Positions 11,463 through 64,000 of a DNA stretch of 64,000 bases are shown piece by piece. The notes below the pieces were generated by a model, which did not search any database, was not told the origin of the DNA, and worked only from the letters and a program-made list of their open reading frames with translations. Numbering within the stretch: the stretch's first letter is position 1; every line of letters begins with the position of its first letter. Source of the DNA: Heloderma charlesbogerti (Eukaryota > Chordata > Lepidosauria > Squamata > Helodermatidae); assembly GCA_026122225.1 (NCBI GenBank), contig JANEZZ010000809.1, positions 374,501 to 438,500 on the forward strand, read 5' to 3'. A program made the position numbers and the translations under genes.

Positions 11463-12508
11463 AATAATAATAATTTTATTTATTTATTAATTAAATGTCT
11501 TAATCGCCCATCTGGCTGATCACCCGGCCACTCTGGGTGATGTACAGCAATACAAACAGTTTTAAAACAATAAAATTCTACATTAAAACATCGTATTTCT
11601 AAAAATACCCTAACCCACACCAAATGCCTGCCTGAACAACCACATTTTTAATGCGTGGTGGATGCTCATTAAAGAGGAGGCATGGCGGAGTTCCCTGGGG
11701 AGGGAGTTCCACAGAGTGGGGGCCACCACGGAGAAGGCCCTCTCCCTCATCCTCACCAGCCTAGCTGTCCTGGCTGATGGGACAGAGAGAAGGCCATCTG
11801 AGGCTGGTCTTGTTAAGCAGCCTGTCTGGTGTTGCTGGAGGTGCTCCTTAAGATAGGCTGGGCCGGAACCATATAGGGTTTTAAAGGTCAAAACCAACAC
11901 CTTGAATTTGGCCCAGAAAACAACAGGTAACCAGTGCAACTCCTTCAGCACCGGAGTGATGTGATCACTCCGGTGGCTGCCTTTAATCAAGCGAGCTGCT
12001 GCGTTCTGCACCAGCTGCAGCTCCCGAACCATCTTCAAGGGTAACCCACATAGAGCGCATTACAGTAGTCTAGACGAGAGGAGAAGGGGCGTATACTACC
12101 GATGCGAGCAGATGGTTGGGGAGATAGGGGCGCAGCCGCCGTATCAGATGGAGTTGGTACAGTGCTATCTGGCTCACAGCTGACACCTGAGCCCCCATGG
12201 ATAGCTGGGAGTCTAAAATGACTCCCAGGCTGCAGACCTGGTCTTTCAAGGGTAGCCGTACCCCATTCAACACCAGGCCAACATCCCCCAACCACCTCTT
12301 GTCTCCCACCAAAAGTACCTCGGTCTTGTCAGGGTTCAGCTTCAGCTTATTCCTCCCTATCCAGCCATTCACCGTCTCCAGACATTTGGACAGGGATTCT
12401 ACTGCCAGCCTTGGTGAAGATTTAAACGAGAGGTAGAGCTATGTGTCATCTGCATATTGATGACACCACAACCCAAACTTCCTGATGATAGCTTCACATA
12501 GAATAATA
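11463..12508 (-). pseudogene. L2-clade LINE, 5'-truncated, long C-terminal ORF
   Basis: The minus strand retains two overlapping segments of LINE ORF2. One (12372 to about 12070) reads NKLKLNPDKTEVLLVGD and GVRLPLKDQVCSLGVILDSQ, the 'palm-to-thumb' part following the catalytic site. The other (12038 to 11610) reads LQLVQNAAARLIKGSHRSDH and ITPVLKELHWLPVVFWAKFK, then ERAFSVVAPTLWNSLPREL, the C-terminal block. A frameshift near 12040-12070 separates them. The 5' break falls just before the YxDD region, where only a degraded QYADDT-like stretch remains. The 3' tail is AT-rich with AATAAT/TAAA repeats beside the SINE. More intact than the copy at 10105-11222. Closely related to the fragment inside the SPIN element at 22290-22692. 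Confidence 0.88.
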
Positions 12509-21971: not shown

Positions 21972-21979
21972 TTCTAGAT
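21972..21979. repeat. 8-bp target-site duplication, left copy
   Basis: TTCTAGAT, identical to 24950-24957. It fits the nTnTAGAn consensus known for hAT insertions. Confidence 0.95.
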
Positions 21980-22285
21980 CAGTGGTTCTCAGCCTTCCTA
22001 ATGCTGCGACCCTTTAAAACAGTTCCTCATGTTGTGGTGACCCCCAACCATAAAATTATTTTCGTTGCTACTTCATAACTGTAATTTTGCTACTGTTATG
22101 AATCGTAATGTAAATATCTGATATGCAGGATGTATTTTCATTGCTATAAACTGAACATAATTAAAGCATAGTGATTAATCACAAAACCAATATGTAATTA
22201 TATGTTGTGAAATATTTATTTCTAATTACAAATAAATGAAATTTTGTCTTGAAGCGTGGTGTAGCATGGGTAACAGACTTAATAT
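21980..22285 (+). mobile_element. SPIN left-terminal region
   Basis: About 305 bp of typical SPIN leader: GTGGTGACCCCCAACCATAA, CGTTGCTACTTCATAACTGT, TGCTACTGTTATGAATCGTA and TTCTAATTACAAATAAATGA. It is AT-rich and uninterrupted, stopping at about GGTAACAGACTTAATATAAC where the L2-derived cargo begins. Well preserved, so the insertion is not ancient. Confidence 0.85.
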
Positions 22286-22289
22286 AACA

Positions 22290-22692
22290 ACCCCAAATGC
22301 CTGCCTGAAGAACCATGTTTATAATGCGTGGTGGAAGCTCATTAAAGAGGGGGCATGGTGGAGTTCCCTAGGGAGGGAGTTCCACAGAGTGGGGGCCACC
22401 ACAGAGAAGGCCCCCTCCCTCGTCCAGACCAGCCTAGCTGTCCTGGCTGATGGGACAGAGAGAAGGCCATCTGAGGCTGCTCTTGTTAAGCAGCCTGTCT
22501 GGTGTTGCTGGAGGTGCTCCTTAAGATAGGCTGGGCCGGAACCATATAGGGCTTTAAAGGTCAAAACCAACACCTTGAACTTGGCCGGGAAAACAGCTGG
22601 TAACTAGTGCAACTCCATCAGCACCAGAGTGATGTGATCATGCAGGCAGCTGCCTTTAATCAGGCAAGCCGCCACGTTCTGTAACAGCTGCA
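22290..22692 (-). pseudogene. L2-clade LINE ORF2 C-terminal fragment inside the SPIN element
   Basis: The minus strand encodes VLTFKALYGSGPAYLKEHLQ, then QHQTGCLTRAASDGLLSVPS and FSVVAPTLWNSLPRELHHA, close to the copy at 11463-12508 but ending inside the coding region without the LINE 3' UTR. Loss of the 3' tail means this was not a normal LINE insertion here; it was more likely carried in as a piece of genomic DNA. The other end runs to CTGTAACAGCTGCAAAATCA before a fold-back element. Confidence 0.85.
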
Positions 22693-22697
22693 AAATC

Positions 22698-22819
22698 AAC
22701 CTTCCCCTACATGGAGCTTTCCAGATATGCTGGGCTACAACTCCTATTGGCCATGCTGGCTGGGGATCATGGGAGTTGTAGTCCAACACACCTGGAGGGC
22801 GCCAGGTTGGGGAAGGCTG
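22698..22819. mobile_element. fold-back F1 within SPIN cargo, copy 1
   Basis: AACCTTCCCCTACATGGAGC and TTCCAGATATGCTGGGCTAC at left pair with TAGTCCAACACACCTGGAGG and CCAGGTTGGGGAAGGCT at right. The middle has CCATGCTGGCTGGGGATCAT. Confidence 0.8.
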
Positions 22820-23051
22820 GTGGGGACTGGAGTATTGGACTGGAGAGGAGCAGACAGCATCTACAACTTACATAATCCATCAGATCAGGCATGAACTCAG
22901 CTGGTGGAATTCAAGATGGTCAGAAAATAAGACACTTGGGTCAGGAAGTCCAAGAGCCTCCTCCTTGATTAGGTATCTCCCCGCTTGATTAGGGATCTCG
23001 GCAGGATGAAAGACATCCTCTGTGGTGAAAGAGACTCACCTTCTATCTAGG

Positions 23052-23192
23052 CCACTTTCCCCAACCTGCTGCCTTCCTGATGTGCTGAACAACAACTCCT
23101 AGCATCCCCAGCCTGTTCAGTTGGCCAAGCTGGCTGGGGATGATGGGAGATGCTGTGCAACACATTGGGAAGGCACCAGATTGGGGAAGGCT
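23052..23192. mobile_element. fold-back F1 within SPIN cargo, copy 2
   Basis: Left arm CACTTTCCCCAACCTGCTGC and right arm CACCAGATTGGGGAAGGCT, with the family's CAAGCTGGCTGGGGATGATG core. Two family members within 250 bp. Confidence 0.8.
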
Positions 23193-23865
23193 AAGCACCT
23201 CATCATATTCTCAACACATGGAAAAAGAGACTTTGATTGTTTCTTTATTATTTATTTCATAGATTTATTTATCGCTTATATTTTTAAAAAATATCTCTGA
23301 GCAGTTAAAGATGTCAGGAGTGGGGGCTTTGGAGAACGGAGGTGGGGCTTCAGGAGAGAGTGAGCCCACCCCAACATCATCCTGCCCCCAGAGGTTGTCC
23401 CAGGAGGCAATCCGGCCCCTGGGGCCAGAACAGTTCCCCATCCCTGGACCAGAGTTCATTTCAACTCTGATGGTATGATTTTATCCCTCTGCATCTTTAT
23501 GTTCTCCTCCCGGTCTTTTCCTTTTCCTTCTCCCTTACTCCCTCACCCTACATCTTGCCATTTGCTTTGTGTCATTGCTCCCTTAAAAAACTGAAAGTTA
23601 CTATAAAACTTTATAAACTAAAACACACACAGCATTTGGAGGCAGATGGTCTGATCTCTGGCGCACAACCCACCAGCGCGTTCCCCTGTGTGTGCCCCAC
23701 ACTGAAAGCACTTGCACTTTCAATGGGGCTTGTGCAGGAGCATGTCTTGGTGGGTCAGGTCCCATGTTAGCATGAATTTGGTAGCAGGAAGAATTATGTT
23801 TGGATTTTCTGCTTCAGGCACCCAAATACTTTGGTCCTGCCCAGGAAGTGAGCCCTGCTGTCAGT
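23193..23865. other. SPIN cargo, mostly unannotated
   Basis: At 23245-23305 there is an L2/SINE-like tail on the minus strand (TATTTATTTCATAGATTTAT, TTATCGCTTATATTTTT). The remainder, including a GC-rich patch near 23320-23460, is unrecognised. Confidence 0.45.
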
Positions 23866-23930
23866 TCAATAGGGGCTTACTCTCAAGTAAGCTTACTCCC
23901 ACATAAGCACACATTTAATTGCAGCCTTAA
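23866..23930. repeat. palindromic MITE arm fragment
   Basis: CAATAGGGGCTTACTCTCAA and TTTAATTGCAGCCTTA resemble the ends of a dispersed palindromic element also seen at 41655-41745. Confidence 0.5.
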
Positions 23931-24175
23931 TGACACCCATAGCCCACTCACCCCATTTGACTGCCTCTCCAGTGTTCCCTTCCAACAGGGCCATTTTGCA
24001 CATGTCCAAGACCTTTGCACATGCTCAAGAGGCCCACTCTGCATCTTCTCACAGCTGCAACTCTGCACACGCTCAGAGACACCGTTCCTCTCTTTACGTA
24101 AAAGGCCAAGACAGGGGCCGGAAGCCAGGCAATAACTTCAAAATCCACAGCTGGGCAATTGGGCAACTCTGGATA

Positions 24176-24364
24176 AAATCCAACTAAAGCCCTTCTTAGA
24201 GTAGACCCATTAAAATGAACGGGACTTAAAACCGTCATGACTACCTTGGGGTTGGACTAGATGGCCTTATAGGACCCTTCCTACCCTACTATTCTATGAT
24301 TCTATGAACATCAGTCCCATTCATTTCAATGCATCTACCTTAAGTAGGGCTTTAGTTGGATTTT
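24176..24364. mobile_element. MITE with inverted arms, split by a CR1 tail
   Basis: The left arm begins AAAATCCAACTAAAGCCCTT; the right arm complements AAAATCCAACTAAAGCCCTA. Complementarity continues for over 50 bp (GTAGACCCATTAAAATGAAC versus GTAGATGCATTGAAATGAAT, then GGGACT). A CR1 3' end sits between the arms. Confidence 0.8.
24241..24306 (+). mobile_element. CR1 LINE 3' terminus
   Basis: GGTTGGACTAGATGGCCTTA, then AGGACCCTTCCTACCCTACT, ending in two ATTCTATGA-type units. This is the characteristic CR1 3' end, with its octamer/nonamer tail, severely 5'-truncated to about 65 bp. It interrupts a palindromic MITE. Confidence 0.88.
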
Positions 24365-24404
24365 ACCCAAAGATTTTGGGCTTCTTTTGACGGTTAACCT
24401 CGAA

Positions 24405-24872
24405 GGGTTGGCTCAAGACCGACCTCCTCATCCTCATCCCCATTCCTGTCCTCTCTCGCCTCCTGGATAGGCCCGTCTCCGGAACTCTTCACATGGTCGG
24501 AGACAAGCCCTGGGCCTGTTGCGGAGCCTGCCCACGAAGCCTGCCACGAAACCCCGCCGGTCCCATCCAGCGCCTGGTGCCCCTCCGAGCTCACCCTGGA
24601 GCAGTGGGACACAACAGCGATGCCTTTGTGTAGTGAAGAGATGAGAGCAAGGCGAGACGGGAGCGGGGTGGCGAGGGAGAGAGAAGCCAGCGGGGGTGGG
24701 CAGAAAAGCCCCCTCGGGGGCGGCAGCTCGCCGTCGGCCCGACGCCTCCTCCACTTCACTGTCGGAGCTGAGCGTATCGTAAGCATCGCGCTGGCAAGGT
24801 GCGCGTCGCGCCCCATCGGAGCCGCCAGGCTCGCTGTAATCCACCCAGCTGAGCCCTTCCAAGTTGTCGTAG
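24405..24872 (-). other. GC-rich segment of unknown origin captured beside the SPIN right end
   Basis: Rich in CpG, unlike everything around it, and ending exactly where the SPIN right end begins. On the minus strand an open frame of 158 codons runs from the SPIN end (24910) through the segment to 24434; after SPIN-derived residues it reads HHYDNLEGLSWVDYSEP and DTLSSDSEVEEASG, an acidic, serine-rich stretch, then Pro/Ala/Arg-rich sequence. A consensus-like donor (CAGG|GTGAGC on the minus strand) lies near 24597. This could be a captured first exon or CpG island of a host gene. I do not recognise the protein. A chance open frame in GC-rich DNA is the alternative. Confidence 0.55.
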
Positions 24873-24949
24873 TGATGGTCTAAGGCAACCCCTGTGAAAG
24901 GGTTGTTCAACCCCCAAAGGGGTCGCGACCCACAGGTTGAGAACCGCTG
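24873..24949 (+). mobile_element. SPIN right-terminal region
   Basis: GATGGTCTAAGGCAACCCCT, GTGAAAGGGTTGTTCAACCC, then CCAAAGGGGTCGCGACCCAC and AGGTTGAGAACCGCTG: the standard SPIN 3' terminus of about 77 bp, including the ACCCC/GGGGT subterminal motif. Confidence 0.88.
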
Positions 24950-24957
24950 TTCTAGAT
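24950..24957. repeat. 8-bp target-site duplication, right copy
   Basis: TTCTAGAT, exact match to the left copy. Confidence 0.95.
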
Positions 24958-25817
24958 GATCTATGACTTAATTGTCATGGAAAAGATCACGAGCTAGTAA
25001 TGGGAGGGATCCAGATAATCGCTTGCAGAAAAGTTGTAGCAGTGGCGGAGTTCCATGAAAATGTGCAACTGGTGGCTCAACATGCGCAGACTGAAATCTG
25101 GCCTTGAAATAAGAGCTCACGATACATTGCCCAGTGTTGTGCAAGAACCCAGAACTCATGGAACCCAATATGATGGGTCAGGATCCTAGCAGTTGCAGAA
25201 TGACATTGCACAATGGGGAAAAAGGTTATGCTGGTGTAGCATACCTTTCGCTCGTGTTGGATGGAATCTGGATCCGATCCTTCAGGTGTAACTGTCCTTT
25301 TCGTTAAAACCTAAAACTTTTTATTAACTTCAGGGAGAGCTTCAGTTCATACCACTTTTTTGTGGAAGTGGAAAGGCTCACTACCTTACATCGGAACTTG
25401 GAGTTTCAATGACAGCATCTGCTGCATGGTGATCTTTTTCTGTCTTCCTGCTCCCCCTTTCCTGTTTACTTCCTGCCAAAAACATTTTTGCATATTTTAG
25501 AGTTAGTAACTGCATATATCAAGAGAGGAACCTTGAATTAGCCCTAAAATGCTTGCAGGGGGGAGGGGCTCGGGTTGGAGGGGACAGAACCCCGTCATTA
25601 TTGCTGATGGAACAGATGTTCCATTTATTTTCTTTTTTGGAACTATCTTGTTTCTTAACCAGTCTTTTATCAACTGATCTTTTACAATCAAAGATGGAAG
25701 CTTTGATTTGTTTTAGCTAGCTTCCCAGTTTTGCCGCCGCATCTTATTTATAATTTTTAACCCTCTCACCTTTTTTCTTCTCTTCCTTGAAGAGTGTTCT
25801 TTCACATTCTTTCATTG
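24958..25817. other. unannotated sequence
   Basis: No feature recognised. Confidence 0.5.
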
Positions 25818-26395: not shown

Positions 26396-27742
26396 TAACC
26401 TGCCTAATCCTCTTTCCAAAAAATCCATCTAAACCAGTGCGCATCGCCACGTCTTGATGTAATGAATGCCATAAGTTGATTATGCTCCATGTGAAGACGC
26501 GATCTCCCCCGCCCCACACACACACACCTTTGGAAGTTACCCCAGGTAACGTGACAAAACTGTAGTTTAAAACCAAAATGGAACAGGTACCCTAGTGTGT
26601 GTTTCTGCAGCTGTGCCACGATACCTTTTATTAGGGAGGCTGCAAATAGTTTGAGCACATAACCTTTAAAATGTGTGTTTGCATCTTAATACACCACATT
26701 TGGCACACTGAGTTCTTGCCAGCCTAGAAGAAGCTGATTTTGTTTCCCAGGGAAGCTGCTTGCCTGCCAAGCTTTAATTTAGGCCTCCTTAATGGATTAT
26801 TAATGAACTCGTGAAGCGTACGTGAATACTTATTGACAAAACACTAGCATTACAATTCAACAGTTTGTCTGTCAATACCCTAATCAAGGACAAGGCGGTT
26901 GTACTGAGGTGATACTGAGAAATACAACTGCTGCCCAACCTAACAAACTCCTTGAAGCTTTGTTTACAATAGCTTGGAATTTTATCTTCCAATCTTGTAC
27001 ACACAAGATAGGAATGCCCTGTTCTTGTAACTCTCAGGCCAGTGCATGAGCAAAAATGTTGAAGTTATGATTTGGTTGAATGGGGATTGAAAGTGCTATT
27101 TTAAAGCTGTGATAGCTAACTGAAACCGCCATGTCCCGAGACATATATCTCTGAGAGGGGACAGACAACAAATGAGGACTGTTGCCTAATGCCATGCTTG
27201 TAGGCTTAGCTGACCACTCTTGGAAACAGGATACTTCAGTAAGTGGCCCTCTGATATGGTTCACTAGTGCTCTCTTGTGTTCATAGGTGGGCCTAACAGT
27301 TCATGTGCACAAGTCCTTTTTCTTTGAACAATAGATCTCCTACACTCGCTCCAGAGGTCATATAAAAACCTGCTTTTGAAATCTCCTGTGGTTTCAAAAG
27401 CAGTTTGTCGTGCACCCATGGATGGCTGCTGTTTGTGAAGTACAAGCTCACAAGCCCTGTCGGAACATGCATAGTAAACTGGACTCTGGCCAGAAAGGTA
27501 TAAGCCACCTTTCTGCCACACGGTGCACGTAAGGTGGGGTTTGGCATAATAAAAACACAAGATTAGATGCATCGCTTGCTAAAAACTTCGAACTTAATCA
27601 AACCTAGCCAGGTAAGCACGATTAAAACCTGAAACAAAGTAAAGCATCAATTAAAATGATACACCGATACAGTAGTAAAGCAGCACTGGCTTTAGCTAAA
27701 GACCAAGTGCCTGGTGGAACATGTAAATCTTTGCTAACTATC
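26396..27742. other. unannotated sequence
   Basis: No feature recognised over about 1.3 kb. Confidence 0.5.
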
Positions 27743-27866
27743 TAGAGCAGCTTTCCTGAACTTGGTGCTTGGGATGTTTTGGACAATAACTCCTAAGTTG
27801 GCCATGCTGGCTGGAGCTGATGGGAGTTGTATCCAGAGGGCATCGGGTTGGGAAAGGCTAGTCTAG
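27743..27866. mobile_element. fold-back F1
   Basis: Ends CTAGAGCAGCTTTCCTGAAC and GTTGGGAAAGGCTAGTCTAG are inverted. The core is GGCCATGCTGGCTGGAGCTG and ATGGGAGTTGTATCC. Confidence 0.8.
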
Positions 27867-28600
27867 AGTGCAGGCTTGAAGATGTGTGACAAAGCCTCCC
27901 TTCTAAAGAGAAAGAGACCAGTGGAATGAATCCAGGGAGAAAGCCATAGTCAGAATGTGCTGCTCAGGCAACTGTTTGAAGCCTCTGTTCCAGCGATTCC
28001 CAAAGGGTATGCAGGAGCATGCTAGTATGCCACATAAGGAGCTGAAATTTGCCTTGAAAATCAAGTTGCCATGTTGGATGCATCCACCAGTCTAGCATTT
28101 GCACATAACAACAAGGCAGGAATCCTGGCTTAATAGACAACAATGTGAATGAGCATGCTAGTACACGTAGCCTGTTTTCTCCCAATCTGGTCCTCCCTTT
28201 GCATGAGGAGATGAACAAGCCAGGAAAGGGATAGCTTTGCTTGATGTCTGAACATGGGATTATGGTTAAGTGCACCCAAACAAACCGGAATTTGTAATCC
28301 AAGAACAAACCCTGGTTTAAAGCTGGCTTTAGATCCTAGCCTCTTCAGATGCGCTTAACAATAATCCCAGGTTTGGAAGTCATGCAAAGTTGTTCCTTGC
28401 CTGGTTTGTTTACCCACTTGTGCAAAGGGAGGAGTGAAGCTGGGAACAAATGGGCTGTGTGCATGAGTTCACTCATTGTGGTTTATTAAGCCAGCAATCT
28501 TGCCTTGTTGCAGGTGAAAGTGGCCTATGGGTATTGGAGTAAGGAGCGTTTATTTCTTCACTCTCCAGGCCAGTATTTGTGTAGTGACTCCCTCCCTCAA
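27867..28600. other. mostly unannotated; possible AACCATGG-type repeat
   Basis: From about 28280 to 28500 there are phrases such as AACAAACCCTGGTTTAAAGC and CCTGGTTTGTTTACCCAC that suggest a decayed palindromic repeat. Not delimited. Confidence 0.4.
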
Positions 28601-33299: not shown

Positions 33300-34753
33300 C
33301 ACAAGGATGGCATTCACCTAGAGCACTGCTTTATGCTAAAAGATGATGCTGTTAAAGTGCTGCACTCAATATGCCAACAAATTTGGAACACTCAACAGTG
33401 GCCACAAGTCTGGAAAAGGTCAGTTTACATTCCAATTCCAAAGAAGGGCAACACCAAAGAGTGTTCAAACTACCGTACAATTGCACTCATTTCACATGCC
33501 AGCAAGGTTATGCTCAAAATCCCACAAGCTAGGCTTGAGCAGTATGTGAACTGAGAACTACCGGAAGTACAAGCTGGGTTCCAAAGAGGCAGAGGAACCA
33601 GAGATCAAATCGCCAGCATTTGCTGGATCATGGCGAAAGCAAGAGAATTCCAGAAAAACGTCTATTTCTGCTTCATTGACTATGCTAAAGCCTTTGATTG
33701 TGTGGATCACAACAAACTGTGGCAAATTCTTAAAGTGACGGGAGTACCAGACCACCTTACCTGTCTCCTGAGAAACCTTTACGAGGGCCAAGAAACAACA
33801 GTAAGAACCAGACATGGAACCGATTGGTTCAAAATTGGGAAAGGAGTACGACAAGGCTGCATATTGTCACCCTGCTTATTTAACTTATATGCAGAGTACA
33901 TCATGAGAAATGCCGGGTTGGATGAATCACAGGTCAGAATTAAGATTGCTGGGAGAATTATCAACAACCTCAGATACGCAGACGATACCACCCTAATGGC
34001 TGAAAGCGAAGAGGATCTAAAGAGCCTCTTGTTGAGGGTGAAAGTGGAGAGTGCAAAAGCTGGTTTGAAACTCAACATTAAAAAAACGAAGATCATGGCA
34101 TCTGGCCCCATCACTTCCTGGCATATAGAAGGGGAAGAAATGGAAGCAGTGACAGATTTTATTTTCTTGGGCTCCAAGATCACCGCAGACAGTGACTGTA
34201 GCCATGGAATTAAAAGATGCTTGCTCCTTGGGAGGAAAGCTATGGCAAACCTAGACAGTGTAGTAAGAAGCAGAGACATCACCTTGGCGACAAAGGTCCG
34301 TCTAATCAAAGCTATGGTTTTCCCAGTAGCAACATATGGCTGTGAGAGCTGGACTATAAGGAAGGCTGAGCGCCGAAGAATCGATGCTTTCGAACTGTGG
34401 TGCTGGAGAAGACCCTTAAGAGTCCCCTGGACTGCAAGGAGGTCAAATCAGTCCATCCTAAAAGAAATCAACCCTGAGTGCTCATTGGAAGGACAGATAC
34501 TGAAGCTGAAGCTCCAATATTTTGGCCACCTAATGTGAAGAGAAAACTCCCTGGAAAAGACCCTGATGCTGGGGAAGACTGAAGGCAAAAGGAGAAGGGG
34601 ATGGCAGAGGATGAGATGGCTAGATAGCATCACCGATGCAATGAATATGAACTTGAGCACACTCCGGGAGAGAGCGCAGGACAGGAAGGCCTGGCGTGCT
34701 ATGGTCCATGGGGTCATGAAGAGTCGGACACGACTTAACGACTGAATAACAAC
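33300..34753 (+). pseudogene. RTE-BovB LINE, 5'-truncated reverse transcriptase, copy 1
   Basis: Encodes the reverse-transcriptase half of the BovB ORF, which copies BovB RNA at nicked target DNA. In frame from 33333: WPQVWKRSVYIPIPKKGN and SNYRTIALISHASKV; then FCFIDYAKAFDCVDHNKLW (first catalytic Asp), KGVRQGCILSPCLFNLYAEY, and the active-site motif LRYADDTT at about 33971-33991; then GLKLNIKKTKIM, the thumb, and KLQYFGHLM. Two in-frame TGA stops, at 33552-33554 and 34536-34538, sit where relatives have CGA, typical CpG decay. Past the second stop the frame continues to the BovB 3' end (AAGAGTCGGACACGACTTAA, CGACTGAATAACAAC). The endonuclease domain is absent. About 1.45 of the usual 3.2 kb remains. 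Confidence 0.95.
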
Positions 34754-35669: not shown

Positions 35670-36829
35670 TTCCATAATTCAAGAAGCTCTTTAATATTTA
35701 TAGACGTTGAATTGGAAGTTGAGTGGTGTTTTTTTTGTGGTGTAAAGATGCTAGATTTGTATTACTAGACAACAAGGGTTTTAAGACTTCAACTTCTAGA
35801 TGCGGGAGTTTGAAAGGGTGCCTCTTCGCCACCTCTACTGGTTTGACTTACAAAGAAGCTAACATCCTTTTAACGTTTGGCTGCCATGACTTCAGAGTAG
35901 CAGCATCTCTTGAAAGACTGCAGTTGATCAATAAAAGTGTGCAGGTGTGTCAGCAATGCTTCTAACACACACTCACACTGTTACCATGGTGTGTATTCAG
36001 TGTAGCCCAAGTCTGACAGAGAGAGAACAAAATCTAGGACTTTCCCCCAATCACTGAGATTAGCTAAAAGTGGGCATTGTATTAGTTCCAACCCTCTAGG
36101 TATAAATTTGAAATACAGGGTGGCATTTCCTCACCCCACCCACCAAAGCTCATGGATTCCATGTGTGTGCTCTACCACCTTAGCTGTCTGTTCCCCTTAG
36201 GGTATGTATCTGTAACTGCTCTGTAGCTTTTTGGTTCTGGTCTGTTAAACTTTTTTCATCATTATACTGCAGACTTCCTGTTTTTAAAGCTTATCTGGCC
36301 CTCTTGAGGGAAAGACTAATATAGCTATGGACACTTCCTGTGGTTATTGTCACTTTTTTTAAAAGGTTTGTTTGATTTTTTTTATAAAGCTATTGAACAT
36401 TAAAGTTATTGATGCACTAAAAATGTGGAGAACCCAGTTTTCCTTCCCCATCCCCTTTGCTGTGCTTTTAATAAAAGATAATTCCATAGCAAAAGTTTCT
36501 TTATTAGGGATATCTGCTTTGCTAGCATTTGGTATGTCAGGGGACACCCCCCCCCCCCAACTCGTCAGTTTAAAGAATCTGTCCTAGTCTGGAGAGATTG
36601 TAAAGGAAGCATTTGGTAGTCATTTCCGCTAGCGTTTTGTGAGAATAAGCATGCTTTACATTATAATAGTTTAAACATACCGCAGGCTGTTGATGGAGGT
36701 ATCATATTTTCCATTCACAAGAGTTTAACGTATGCTTAAGAATAGACCAGGGTAGCTTTCATTGTTTAAAATTGGGTTTGATTTAGAACATTAAAAAGGG
36801 GGTGGGGGATTCCTTTAGTCTTGTGGCCT
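35670..36829. other. unannotated sequence
   Basis: No repeat or exon recognised; a C-run lies at 36548-36558. Confidence 0.5.
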
Positions 36830-38090: not shown

Positions 38091-38758
38091 TCTAAATTAA
38101 GTCACTGTATTCTCTTGCCAAGCCATCAAAGCATACTTAAATTAGCCAGTGTACTGTAGAACAGTAAGAGTTTGAAGGGACCTGTGCTAAGCATTCCCAG
38201 CAGAAGCCTGTAAAAAATTTCCTTGAAAACTTCCAAGGCAAGAAACCTCACAGCCTCCCTAGAAACCTTATTCTTCTATTGAATGAGACACATAGTTTAG
38301 AAAATTATCATCTAATGTTTTGTCTAAAGTAGAGGTTCCTGTAGTTCTACACTTTTTTTTTCTTGTCCAAAGCAGCCTGTAAAGCATAACTAGTAGCATG
38401 CCATGTGCAGGTTTCATTTTCCAGGCTTGGAAATTGCTAGGAACCTGACCTTTGAAAAGTAGCCTGCCAAATAGGTCTACAAGTTACTAGTAAAAAAAAT
38501 CTACCAGCCCACTTGCCCCCAGTTGTGGGGAGCCTTTACTTCTTGAATCTAGTATTTATTCAAATTGGAGACCATCATGCCAGGCTACCTATTTAGGAAC
38601 ATGGTGGCCTGAAAGGAAAAAAGAAAAACAAAAAGCTAACCTGCTTATAGTTTTACAAAAGCTTCCCTGCTTGGATGTTTGGAGGAGATACTTGCCATAA
38701 GTGAGAATGCAAATAGCTGCTATGTATTTGTATAGGCTAGTAACGTGTAGACTTACAT
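38091..38758. other. unannotated sequence
   Basis: No feature recognised. Confidence 0.5.
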
Positions 38759-40380
38759 GCTTTTGTTGTTGTTGTTCAGTCGTGTCCGACTCTTCGTGAC
38801 CCCATGGACCATAGCACGCCAGGCCTTCCTGTCCTCCACTCTCTCCCGGAGTGTGCTCAAGTTCATATCCATTGCATCGGTGATGCTATCTAGCCATCTC
38901 ATCCTCTGCCATCCCCTTCTCCTTTTGCCTTCAGTCTTTCCCAGCATCAGGGTCTTTTCCAGTGAGTTTTCTCTTCGCATTAGGTGGCCAAAATATTTGA
39001 GCTTCAGCTTCAGTATCTGTCCTTCCAATGAGCACTCAGGGTTGATTTCTTTTAGGATGGACTGATTTGACCTCCTTGCAGTCCAGGGGACTCGTAAGAG
39101 TCTTCTCCAGCACCACAGTTCGAAAGCATCAATTCTTCGGCGCTCAGCCTTCCTTACAGTCCAGCTCTCACAGCCATACGTTGCTACTGGGAAAACCATA
39201 GCTTTGATTATACGAACCTTTGTCGGCAAGGTGATGTTCCTGCTTCTTACTATGCTGTCTAGGTTTGCCATAGCTTTCCTCCCAGAGAGCAAGCATCTTT
39301 TAATTCCATGGCTACAGTCACTGTCTGCGGTGATCTTGGAGCCCAAGAAAATAAAATCTGTCACTGCTTCCATTTCTTCCCCTTCTATATGCCAGGAAGT
39401 GATGGGGCCAGATGCCATGATCTTCGTTTTTTTAATATTGAGTTTCAAACCAGCTGTTGCACTCTCCACTTTCACTCTCAACAAGAGGCTCTTTAGATCC
39501 TCTTCGCTTTCAGCCATTAGGGTGGTATCGTCTGTGTATCTGAGGTTGTTGATAATTCTCCCGGCAATCTTAATTCCGACCTGTGATTCATCCAACCCGG
39601 TGTTTCTCATGATGTACTCTGCATATAAGTTAAATAAGCAGGGCGACAATATGCAGCCTTGTCGTACTCCTTTCCCAATTTTGAACCAATCAGTTGTTCC
39701 ATGTCTGGTTCTTACTGTTGCTTCTTGGCCCTCGTACGGGTTTCTCAAGAGACAGGTAAGGTGGTCTGGTACTCCCATCTCTTTCAGAATTTGCCACAGT
39801 TTGTTGTGATCCGCACAATCAAAGGCTTTAGCGTAGTCAATGAAGCAGAAATAGATGTTTTTCTGCAATTCTCTTGCTTTCTCCATGATGCAGCGAATGT
39901 TGGCGATTTGATCTCTAGTTCCTCTGCCTCTTTGAAACCCAGCTTGTGCTTCCGGTAGTTCTCGGTTCGCATACTGCTGAAGCCTACTTGTAGGATTTTG
40001 AGCATCACCTTGGTGGCATGTGAAATGAGCGCAATTGTGCGGTAGTTTGAACACTCTTTGGCATTGCCCTTCTTTGGAATTGGAATGTAAACTGACCTTT
40101 TCCAGTCTTGCGGCCATTGTTGAGTGTTCCAAATTTGTTGGCATATTGAACGCATTACTTTAACAGCATCATCTTTTAGGATCTTAAATAGCTCAGCTGG
40201 AAGACTGTCATCTCCGCTAGCTTTGTTGTTAGTGATGCTTCCTAAGGCCCACTTGACTTCACACTCTAGGATGTCCGGCTCAAGTTCAGTGACCGCACTA
40301 TCATGGCTATCAGGGACATTCAGATCTTCCCTGTATAGTTCTTCTGTGTATTCTTTCCACCTCTTCTTAATCTTACTTGC
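38759..40380 (-). pseudogene. RTE-BovB LINE, 5'-truncated reverse transcriptase, copy 2
   Basis: Inverted relative to copy 1 and slightly longer at the 5' side. A frame of 463 codons ends at 38753 and is correct BovB protein from about NRELPEAQAGFQRGRGTRDQ onward, through FCFIDYAKAFDCADHNKLW, KGVRQGCILSPCLFNLYAEY and the active site, here LRYTDDTT, to RMRWLDSITDAMDMNL and VHGVTKSRTRLN. Its first 55 or so residues are out of frame; the true upstream sequence (WPQDWKRSVYIPIPKKGN) is in another frame, so a frameshift lies near 39970-39985. The Ala-to-Thr change in YADD keeps both catalytic Asp residues. No internal stop occurs after the frameshift, so it is younger or luckier than copy 1. The 3' end has a short (TTG)n on the plus strand. 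The endonuclease domain is missing. Confidence 0.95.
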
Positions 40381-59775: not shown

Positions 59776-60075
59776 TCCTGAAACTGGCATCCTCCAGATG
59801 TGTTGGATGACAACTTCCATAATCCCCAGCTAGCATAGGAAGCTGCCTTAACACTGAATCAGACCCTTGGTCCATCTAGCCCAGTACTGTTGATACTGAC
59901 TTGCAGCATCTTCCTAGCCCTGTCTGGAGATGCTGGGGATTGAACCCAGGACCTTCTGCATGCAAAGCATGTGCTCTGTTACTGAGCTATGGTCCCGCCA
60001 GCCCTATGCCATGCTGGCTGGGGATGATGGGTCCAATGCATCTAGAGGGCGCCAGCCTGGGGAAGGCTGTTTTAG
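59776..60075. mobile_element. fold-back F1 interrupted by a SINE
   Basis: The left half is CTGAAACTGGCATCCTCCAG and ATGTGTTGGATGACAACTTC, to CCCCAGCTAGCA. The right half resumes at GCCATGCTGGCTGGGGATGA and ends CGCCAGCCTGGGGAAGGCTG. Confidence 0.85.
59834..59998 (-). mobile_element. SINE-B nested in fold-back F1
   Basis: A good copy: 3' end CATAGGAAGCTGCCTTAACA, CAGACCCTTGGTCCATCTAG; head GGGGATTGAACCCAGGACCT, TGCAAAGCATGTGCTCTGTT and ACTGAGCTATGG. It cuts the fold-back in its middle. Some body sequence is deleted. Confidence 0.9.
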
Positions 60076-62732: not shown

Positions 62733-63768
62733 TTAATACCTGGATGAAAATCCTTTGCAGTCAATGACTGCCTGAAGTCTGGAACCCATGGACATGACCA
62801 AATGCTGAGTTTCCTCCCTTGAGATGCTTTGCCAGGCCTTTACTGCAGCTGCCGTCAGCTGCTGCTTGTTTGTGGGTCTTTCTGCCCTCAGCCTTGTCTT
62901 CAGTAAGTGAAAAGCATGCTCTATTGGGTTGAGATCAGGTGACTGACTTGGCCATTGAAGAACATCCCACTTCTTTCCCTTGAGAAACTCTTGGGTATCT
63001 TTTACTGTATGTTTTGGGTCATTATCCATCTGCAATATGAAGCGGCGTCCTATCAGTTTGGCAGCATTCGGCTGAATCTGAACAGAAAGTATAGCCCTAT
63101 ACACTTCAGAATTCATTCTACTGCTTTTATCAGCAGTCAGGTCATCAATAAACGCCAGTGACCCAGTTCCGTTGGCAGCCATACATGCCCATACCATAAC
63201 ACTGCCTCCACCATGTTTGACAGATGATGTGGTATGCTTTGGATCATGAGCTGTTCCTTTTCTTCTCCATACTTTTCTCTTCCCATCATGCTGGTACAAG
63301 TTAATCTTGGCTTAATCAGTCCAAAGAATCTTATTCCAGAACTGGGCAGGCTTTTTTAGGTGTTAGCTGGCGAAGGCTAATCTGGCCTTTCTGTTCTTGA
63401 GCGTTACCAGTGGTTTGCACCTTGTTGAGAAGCCTCTGTATTTACATTCATAAAGCTGGCTCTTGACTGTAGATGTTGACAATGACATGCCTACCTCCTC
63501 AAGAGCGTTCTTGACCTGGCTACATGTGGTGAAAGGGTTCCTCTTCACCATGAGCAGAATTCTGCTGTCATCCACTTTAGTTGTCTTCTGTGGTCTTCCA
63601 GGCCTTCTGCTGTTGCTGAGCTTGCCAGTTAATTCCTTCTTTTTCAGGATGTTTCAAACTGTTGTTTTGGCCACTCCCAATTTTTGCTATCTCTCTGATG
63701 GGTTTACTTTGTTTCCTCAGCCTAATGATGGCCTCCTTCATTCGCATGGACACCTCTTTGGACCTCAT
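62733..63768 (-). pseudogene. Tc1 transposase, inactivated
   Basis: Would encode a transposase of about 340 residues: an N-terminal paired-like helix-turn-helix DNA-binding region and a C-terminal DDE domain. Seen in order on the minus strand: MRSKEVSMRMKEAIIRLRKQ and IREIAK (first HTH); then a frameshift near 63685; LLMVKRNPFTTCSQVKNALE with STSTVK (second HTH); GFSTRCKPLVTLKNRKARLA; a TAA stop at 63363-63365; the first catalytic Asp (WTD), followed directly by a TGA stop where the family has Glu; then MYQHDGKRKVWRRKGTAHDP, GGGSVMVWACMAANGTGSLA, the second Asp in QMDNDPKHT, and the catalytic Glu in SPDLNPIEHAFH, ending ...DCKGFSSRY. The DDE triad survives, but one frameshift and two stops disable it. 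The last 189 codons are uninterrupted. Confidence 0.95.
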
Positions 63769-63904
63769 GTTGGGAGTTCCTGTGAACAGCTACCAAATGC
63801 AAATGTAACACTCAGAACCACCTCCAGGGCTTTTATCTGCTTGACTGGTCATGGTGTACCCAGGAAACAGGCCATACCTGGCCATACAGCTGCTTGTCAG
63901 CCAT

Positions 63905-64000
63905 TCGTTCCATTACTTATGAGCCACCAACGATGGGTGTGTGTGTATGCCACTGGCTGTCCTTCCTGAATGGTTAGTGCCTCACTTTTGTCAAACCCCT
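63905..64000. repeat. Tc1 right terminal inverted repeat, inner part
   Basis: Complement of the inner left repeat: GTTCCATTACTTATGAGCCA, ATGCCACTGGCTGTCCTTCC and CCTCACTTTTGTCAAACCCC. The outer 128 bp or so are not in the window. Confidence 0.9.

Follow-up and report, generated by a model that had tools for sequence, protein, structure and literature searches.

A SPIN-type hAT transposon carrying a segment of the host gene SLC12A4 in Heloderma charlesbogerti

The block at 21972–24957 and its SLC12A4 donor

The window studied here, i.e. the whole stretch of 64,000 nucleotides from Heloderma charlesbogerti (contig JANEZZ010000809.1, positions 374,501 to 438,500; placed at G000:C700 by our genome search), contains at positions 21972–24957 a 2970-bp insertion of the hAT (SPIN) type with ends at 21980 and 24949 and an exact 8-bp target-site duplication (Table 1). 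Its cargo is one contiguous copy of 2584 bp from SLC12A4 (KCC1), comprising the 3' part of exon 1, the 5' splice site that ends it and the beginning of intron 1, and the element is hence designated SLC12A4-SPIN. We interpret the block as a non-autonomous, gene-carrying (Pack-type) SPIN/hAT transposon that arose by a single capture from SLC12A4 and was subsequently spread and deleted, a reading to which we assign a probability of about 0.93.

The ends combine short CAG...CTG terminal inverted repeats (TIRs), which match at 12 of 14 bases (CAGTGGTTCTCAGC / CAGCGGTTCTCAAC), with an 8-bp duplication of the form nTnTAGAn, the target rule of SPIN. Both the 312-bp and the 76-bp SPIN ends are common to SPIN copy L049, and the pair is the only one in the window retrieved by a scan for CAG...CTG ends 80–3600 bp apart with identical 8-bp flanks, terminal bases that agree at 9 or more of 14 positions, and starts in the first 60 kb. 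Identical 8-mers at the spacing of the block occur at only 4 of 61,014 positions, and TTCTAGAT itself has one additional occurrence in the window (position 35794). The sequence-only reading of this locus had proposed either a single insertion with an exact duplication at SPIN-type ends or a SPIN insertion filled afterwards; the former is borne out by the end-pair scan and by the copies elsewhere in the genome.

The interior harbors no hAT transposase, as that reading had stated: of 52 frames between stops in the region, six were tested and gave no Pfam match at E 1 or better. Because the entire interior consists of donor DNA as well, SLC12A4-SPIN has no transposase of its own and is non-autonomous. 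The L2 fragment, two fold-backs, split miniature inverted-repeat transposable element (MITE) and GC-rich segment described from the letters alone are all present at their positions. Over 403 bp the L2-type piece shares 91% identity with window positions 11617–12019, and the arms of the interrupted inverted repeat (24167–24226 and 24313–24372), split by a short, tail-like insert, are 85% complementary. The GC-rich segment (24430–24872) has a GC content of 65.5% and an observed/expected CpG ratio of 0.78, vs 0.22 for the window.

Translated on the minus strand, the GC-rich segment gives YDNLEGLSWVDYSEPGG...DAYDTLSSD. Comparison with solved structures returned SLC12A4 (KCC1) with 12 identical residues at weak E-values of 0.15 and 0.09, and a protein-database search with the chimeric frame had a sole match, P0001, among 180 candidates (E 3.1e-4). 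The P0001 frame includes MPHFTVV and aligns with human KCC1 from residue 1 (E 4e-8), and as a query it retrieved 42 proteins, including the bird protein P0011, which bears the name solute carrier family 12 member 4. It is P0001, this bird protein and the donor locus, not the structure match, on which the identification as KCC1/SLC12A4 is based. Comparison of P0011 with the genomic frames suggests that exon 1 ends where the window departs from the coding match. A tblastn search with 60 human residues located exon 1 alone in the block, besides chance-level matches.

The origin of the cargo could be pinpointed in the same 2.30-Gb assembly, in which 40 places were scored of 12,038 candidates. Donor L005 on contig G000:C2546 aligns with the element in one piece, with 2587 bp in the donor against 2584 bp in the element. 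It lacks SPIN ends, has a start codon and GC-rich upstream sequence, encodes MPHFTVVPVEDKRRADYDNLEGLSWVDYSEPGGSDG... and exhibits the splice donor GACG|GTGAGT, the context of which (GGTGAGTGGAGG) is intact in the donor and in 19 of 29 copies. Exon 2 (815581–815459) and exon 3 (807404–807264) are located on the same contig and strand, collinear with the ATG-containing exon 1. No SPIN was found in the 55.6 kb read around it, where the top matches to SPIN ends measure just 18 bp (E 0.12) and 12 bp (E 0.41). A retrocopy origin is rejected, as exon 1 runs directly into intron 1 and the donor exon 2 lies about 32 kb away, which is indicative of copying at the DNA level.

All of these pieces, from the L2 and the two fold-backs to the split MITE and the GC-rich segment, reside contiguously in the exon 1/intron 1 region of L005 and were accordingly copied together in one event. 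The L2 lacks its tail because it contains the capture breakpoint, beyond which the donor sequence goes on; the left donor flank is the remainder of the same L2. The cargo is not a patchwork: the GC-rich and L2 pieces are not separate captures, given that a single donor segment holds both. Later independent insertion of the pieces, which had been named as a possible refutation, is likewise rejected, since the uninterrupted donor already includes them; a search for target duplications belonging to the fold-backs, to the L2 piece or to the split MITE yielded matches of at most 5–7 bp, and none for fold-back 1.

Table 1. Coordinates of the SLC12A4-SPIN block and its parts in the window (HSP, high-scoring segment pair; LINE, long interspersed nuclear element)
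Feature	Position	Strand	Remark
Left 8-bp target-site duplication	21972..21979	.	TTCTAGAT
SPIN 5' terminal 312 bp	21980..22291	+	96% identical to 5' 312 bp of SPIN copy L049
Segment captured from SLC12A4, contiguous, 2584 bp	22290..24873	-	Single HSP, element 311-2894, 92.9% identity to donor L005
L2-type LINE fragment	22290..22692	-	Cut by capture breakpoint, without 3' tail
524 bp missing in short form	22299..22822	.	BLAST edges; one extra T at join
Fold-back repeat 1	22697..22819	.	Already resident in donor intron
Fold-back repeat 2	23054..23190	.	Inside contiguous donor match
Inverted-repeat (MITE-like) element	24167..24372	.	Interrupted at about 24227-24312 by short insert
CpG-rich segment	24430..24873	.	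From donor first exon and intron 1 start
Exon 1 5' splice site	24754..24759	-	Altered in window copy (GTGAAG)
Partial exon 1 of SLC12A4	24760..24873	-	From YDNLEGLSWVDY... to splice site, without ATG
SPIN 3' terminal 76 bp	24874..24949	-	Comparison with other SPIN copies
Right 8-bp target-site duplication	24950..24957	.	TTCTAGAT

Copies of SLC12A4-SPIN across the genome

The 40 scored places comprise 39 element copies, including three near-identical contigs, and the donor; as scoring was confined to these 40 candidates, all copy counts are lower bounds biased toward copies resembling that of the window. In total, 42 copies were examined in successive batches of 29, 10 and 3. Both ends and an 8-bp duplication are present in 33 of the 42 (26 exact, seven with one mismatch), and 27 of the 31 duplications compared are distinct. 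The bases at target positions 4–7 (T 30, A 30, G 26 and A 27 of 31) fit nTnTAGAn. Among 26 copies probed against the retrieved loci and the window, paralogous empty sites with one target copy each were found for L003, L013, L020 and L025. The empty paralogues of the repeats hit by L020 and L025 are located inside the window itself (63352–63951 and 11580–12186, respectively).

The junction between exon and SPIN occurs 45 times genome-wide with at most three mismatches, and the reversed control zero times; 12 of these places lie outside the 40 scored, and the three that were read are L046–L048. This distribution of one cargo over many loci with different duplications documents mobilization as a unit and thereby supplies the observation by which the sequence-only reading had proposed to recognize it. 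The Pack-type, gene-capturing interpretation is supported by the multicopy unit and the identified donor. Neither the multicopy state nor the host exon within the GC-rich piece had been part of that reading. Patterns of the SPIN ends had no match in the sets viral_contigs and genome_contigs. The near-identical contigs C47, C2135 and C45 surround one truncated copy (L042, L043 and L044) and represent either duplicated sequence or unmerged haplotypes. In L004, a long-form copy, some 250 bp are additionally inserted at element positions 189–194, with a short duplication.

Two structural forms can be distinguished. The first 29 copies include four of the long form (L001, i.e. the window copy, and L002–L004) and 25 of the short form without element positions 320–843, which is the majority form of the copies examined. 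In the short form the SPIN breakpoint AACAAC is followed at once by seven retained donor bases, CCCAAAT, and this indicates its descent from the long form; a 524-bp internal deletion in the latter gave rise to the commoner short form. L045, L046 and L047 are other deletion derivatives, which may have emerged by the usual MITE-like route. The 29 copies differ from their majority consensus by 1.2–2.3% (median 1.9%), and the donor differs from it by 5.3% over 2136 columns, the short-form gap being excluded. This difference indicates that the capture preceded the burst of copies.

The start of exon 1, checked as one exact string, is present in none of 29 copies, and the 45-codon stretches of 27 copies (L003 and L013 left out) give no sign of a conserved product: four contain a stop, one of them beyond the splice site, and L022 is frame-shifted. 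Exonization or promoter activity of the copies is possible.

Proposed capture, putative transposase source and competing explanations

The exact breakpoints can be traced by comparison of SPIN, element and donor. At the left junction, SPIN copy L049 reads ...ATATAACAAC|AGTAAAC, the element ...ATATAACAAC|CCCAAAT and the donor ...CCACCCCAAAT, with an overlap of 2 bp (AC). At the right junction, the donor reads GTCGTAGT|CCG and the element GTCGTAGT|GATGG without overlap, and TTTTCC|GATGG is found on the SPIN side in most SPIN copies among the matches listed. A break within a SPIN copy may have been repaired by copying from the SLC12A4 locus, thereby replacing the transposase and leaving the AC overlap on the left and a blunt junction on the right.

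The chimera would then have been mobilized in trans by the transposase of other SPIN copies, of which L052 is a putative source. The 1.3 kb read at its SPIN 3' end contain an uninterrupted frame of 369 amino acids (L052:193–1299) that retrieved 806 proteins at E 1e-20 or better. Among the best 120 of these 806, the relatives include sequences from a viper (92% identity), a bat (90%) and a toad (88%) and also from frogs and geckos; most of them contain PF14291, and PF05699 is found solely in remoter relatives of about 50–54% identity. PF14291 is the DUF4371-type domain and PF05699 the hAT dimerization domain. The patchy distribution over viper, bat and toad is a pattern typical of horizontal transfer, for which the SPIN family is noted.

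Several observations weigh against this interpretation. The capture event itself was not observed, and overlaps of 2 and 0 bp fit other repair routes too, the SPIN side of the left junction being known from one copy, L049. No duplication is recognizable in nine of the 42 copies: L008 matches at 2 of 8 bases, the 3' part of L029, L030 and L041 is lost or interrupted, L040 has lost its ends, L042–L044 are the near-identical contigs and L048 is covered only partly. Within the 1.3 kb read of L052, Pfam at E 0.01 or better gave a single sub-threshold zinc-finger match for its frame, and the same region of L053 falls into two frames, so that an intact autonomous copy is putative, as is transposase supplied in trans. 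The first search of structures ranked an unrelated capsid protein (E 0.085) slightly above KCC1 (0.15), and the sites separating the long and short forms do not favor a long-first order.

The last point bears on the alternative that the short form took a smaller piece of SLC12A4 first and that the L2 and fold-back were gained later, making the long form derived. It draws on the predominance of short copies among the first 29, on a star-like tree with mostly low supports (one young group is well supported, 100) in which the long copy of the window groups with a short one (support 45), and on the three separating sites: in one the donor agrees with the short form, one is uninformative, and the one in which it agrees with the long form lies at the deletion join itself. 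However, the donor has the L2 and fold-back contiguously, the left breakpoint of the long form lies inside that L2, and the CCCAAAT after AACAAC in the short form is explicable by the long form only, which renders this order highly improbable. The capture might also have happened in another species, with the loaded SPIN arriving by horizontal transfer, as the occurrence of SPIN transposase relatives of 85–92% identity in snakes, bats and frogs (best 120 of 806) would allow. We consider this very unlikely, because the donor–consensus divergence is small compared with the median among copies, as expected for a capture within the lineage, and because the donor intron has the same repeats in the same places. 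The chimeric-frame search, which recovered one genuine SLC12A4 exon (1 of 180), is weak evidence of absence elsewhere.

Two further scenarios dispense with transposition of the chimera. An ordinary SPIN copy could have been broken and patched once and never mobilized, and most animal Pack-TIRs are such single-copy gap fills according to a published survey (PMC8277862). Yet 39 places exhibit the same internal structure, and the copies with duplications of their own lead us to reject this scenario, the probability of which is practically negligible. That the block was spread by segmental duplication, or that SPIN copies were joined in the assembly, finds some backing in the near-identity of L042–L044, to which it may apply. 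For the bulk of the copies it is scarcely credible and was rejected: an all-vs-all comparison of the 400-bp flanks of 29 copies yielded only six flank pairs at E 1e-10 with 69–77% identity, some reflecting insertion into a common repeat family, the duplications are largely distinct and the empty sites precise. An assembly join, the other refutation envisaged at the outset, fails since the same unit recurs at many loci.

Relation to known systems and further SPIN cargoes

SLC12A4-SPIN is a multicopy Pack-TIR by the working definition of that survey (PMC8277862, Nat Commun 2021). It shares with the cases described there the TIRs of one element around a copied host-gene segment, a donor of at least 90% identity with a length ratio near 1 (80–120%; here 92.9%) and the recognition of multicopy cases by distinct duplications; the median breakpoint microhomology of Pack-TIRs is 2 bp, vs 2 and 0 bp here. 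In the survey hAT elements are the commonest carriers (208 of 370), animal Pack-TIRs are almost all single copies mostly formed without transposition, and four multicopy cases are given for 100 genomes. An example from this source has three copies with a 291-bp cargo, in contrast to SLC12A4-SPIN, which has 45 junctions genome-wide and carries 2.58 kb that include coding exon, splice site and intron sequence. The survey filter removes donors with transposable elements in the flanking 100 bp (PMC8277862), and the L2-flanked SLC12A4 donor would probably have been lost to it. This filter guards against segmental duplication and is not part of the Pack-TIR definition; the donor flank with its L2 would not pass it, but segmental duplication is excluded here by the flank comparison and the empty sites.

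With SPIN (SPACE INVADERS) the element shares the terminal sequences, nTnTAGAn duplications, internally deleted derivatives and a PF14291 transposase segment in the same genome, but its interior is host DNA and not transposase or a simple deletion derivative. It resembles the rice Pack-MULEs and plant Pack-TYPE elements as a high-copy carrier of host gene pieces, and differs from Pack-MULEs in being a hAT rather than a Mutator element and in its vertebrate host. Gene capture by cut-and-paste transposons is a textbook theme in plants, in which Pack-MULEs prefer the GC-rich 5' parts of genes. A literature search, with most subscription papers outside its reach, showed no SLC12A4-carrying SPIN among the results listed.

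A pattern for the SPIN 3' subterminal region had 213 matches, 100 on the forward and 113 on the reverse strand, against 1 and 0 for the control, and those listed include the canonical junction AATATGTGTTTTCC, the SLC12A4 junction and, counted by eye, at least 10 rows with the junction AAGGACCATTTTCC. Three loci picked for the latter, L050 (G000:C344:702800–704300), L051 (C529) and L054 (C1143), have in common a GC-rich interior of 89–90% identity (cargo B) that adjoins the SPIN 3' end; L051 is complete with the duplication GCATATGG. Of the canonical picks, L052 and L053 contain transposase-like frames and L049 a different interior. The latter copy (L049:979–2979) has the duplication GTTTAAAG, the 312-bp SPIN 5' end, about 140 bp of the SPIN 3' end and a partly CpG-rich interior (cargo C), seven frames of which gave no credible Pfam match (best E 0.2, sub-threshold). 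Given that one SPIN group and one further copy carry different GC-rich interiors, capture has probably been repeated. That SPIN acts in this genome as a recurrent shuffler of GC-rich gene starts, with three cargoes a vertebrate counterpart of the rice Pack-MULEs, is a tentative proposal that we rate slightly below even odds; if true, SPIN cargoes may bring CpG-rich segments with splice donors into the vicinity of other genes.

SLC12A4-SPIN indicates that in vertebrates a cut-and-paste transposon of the hAT type is able to copy exons of its host and disperse them. One vertebrate assembly holds the donor, the exact breakpoints, the original chimera, its derivatives, distinct duplications and paralogous empty sites, making the birth and amplification of a Pack-TIR directly testable. 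As a member of a family known for horizontal transfer here carries a host exon together with a CpG-rich region, the travel of exons between species is possible in principle.

The window contains further repeats. A copy of the fold-back family at 27700–27875 has near-identical flanks (ATCTAGAG / GTCTAGAG), which suggests that this family might itself be a hAT MITE with nTnTAGAn targets. Long reverse-transcriptase open reading frames at 33555–34538 and 38753–40380 are two similar copies that we take to be BovB-like. Two tRNA-like stretches (25562–25639 and 59925–59996), each called by just one of ARAGORN and Rfam, are probably tRNA-derived repeats or chance matches.

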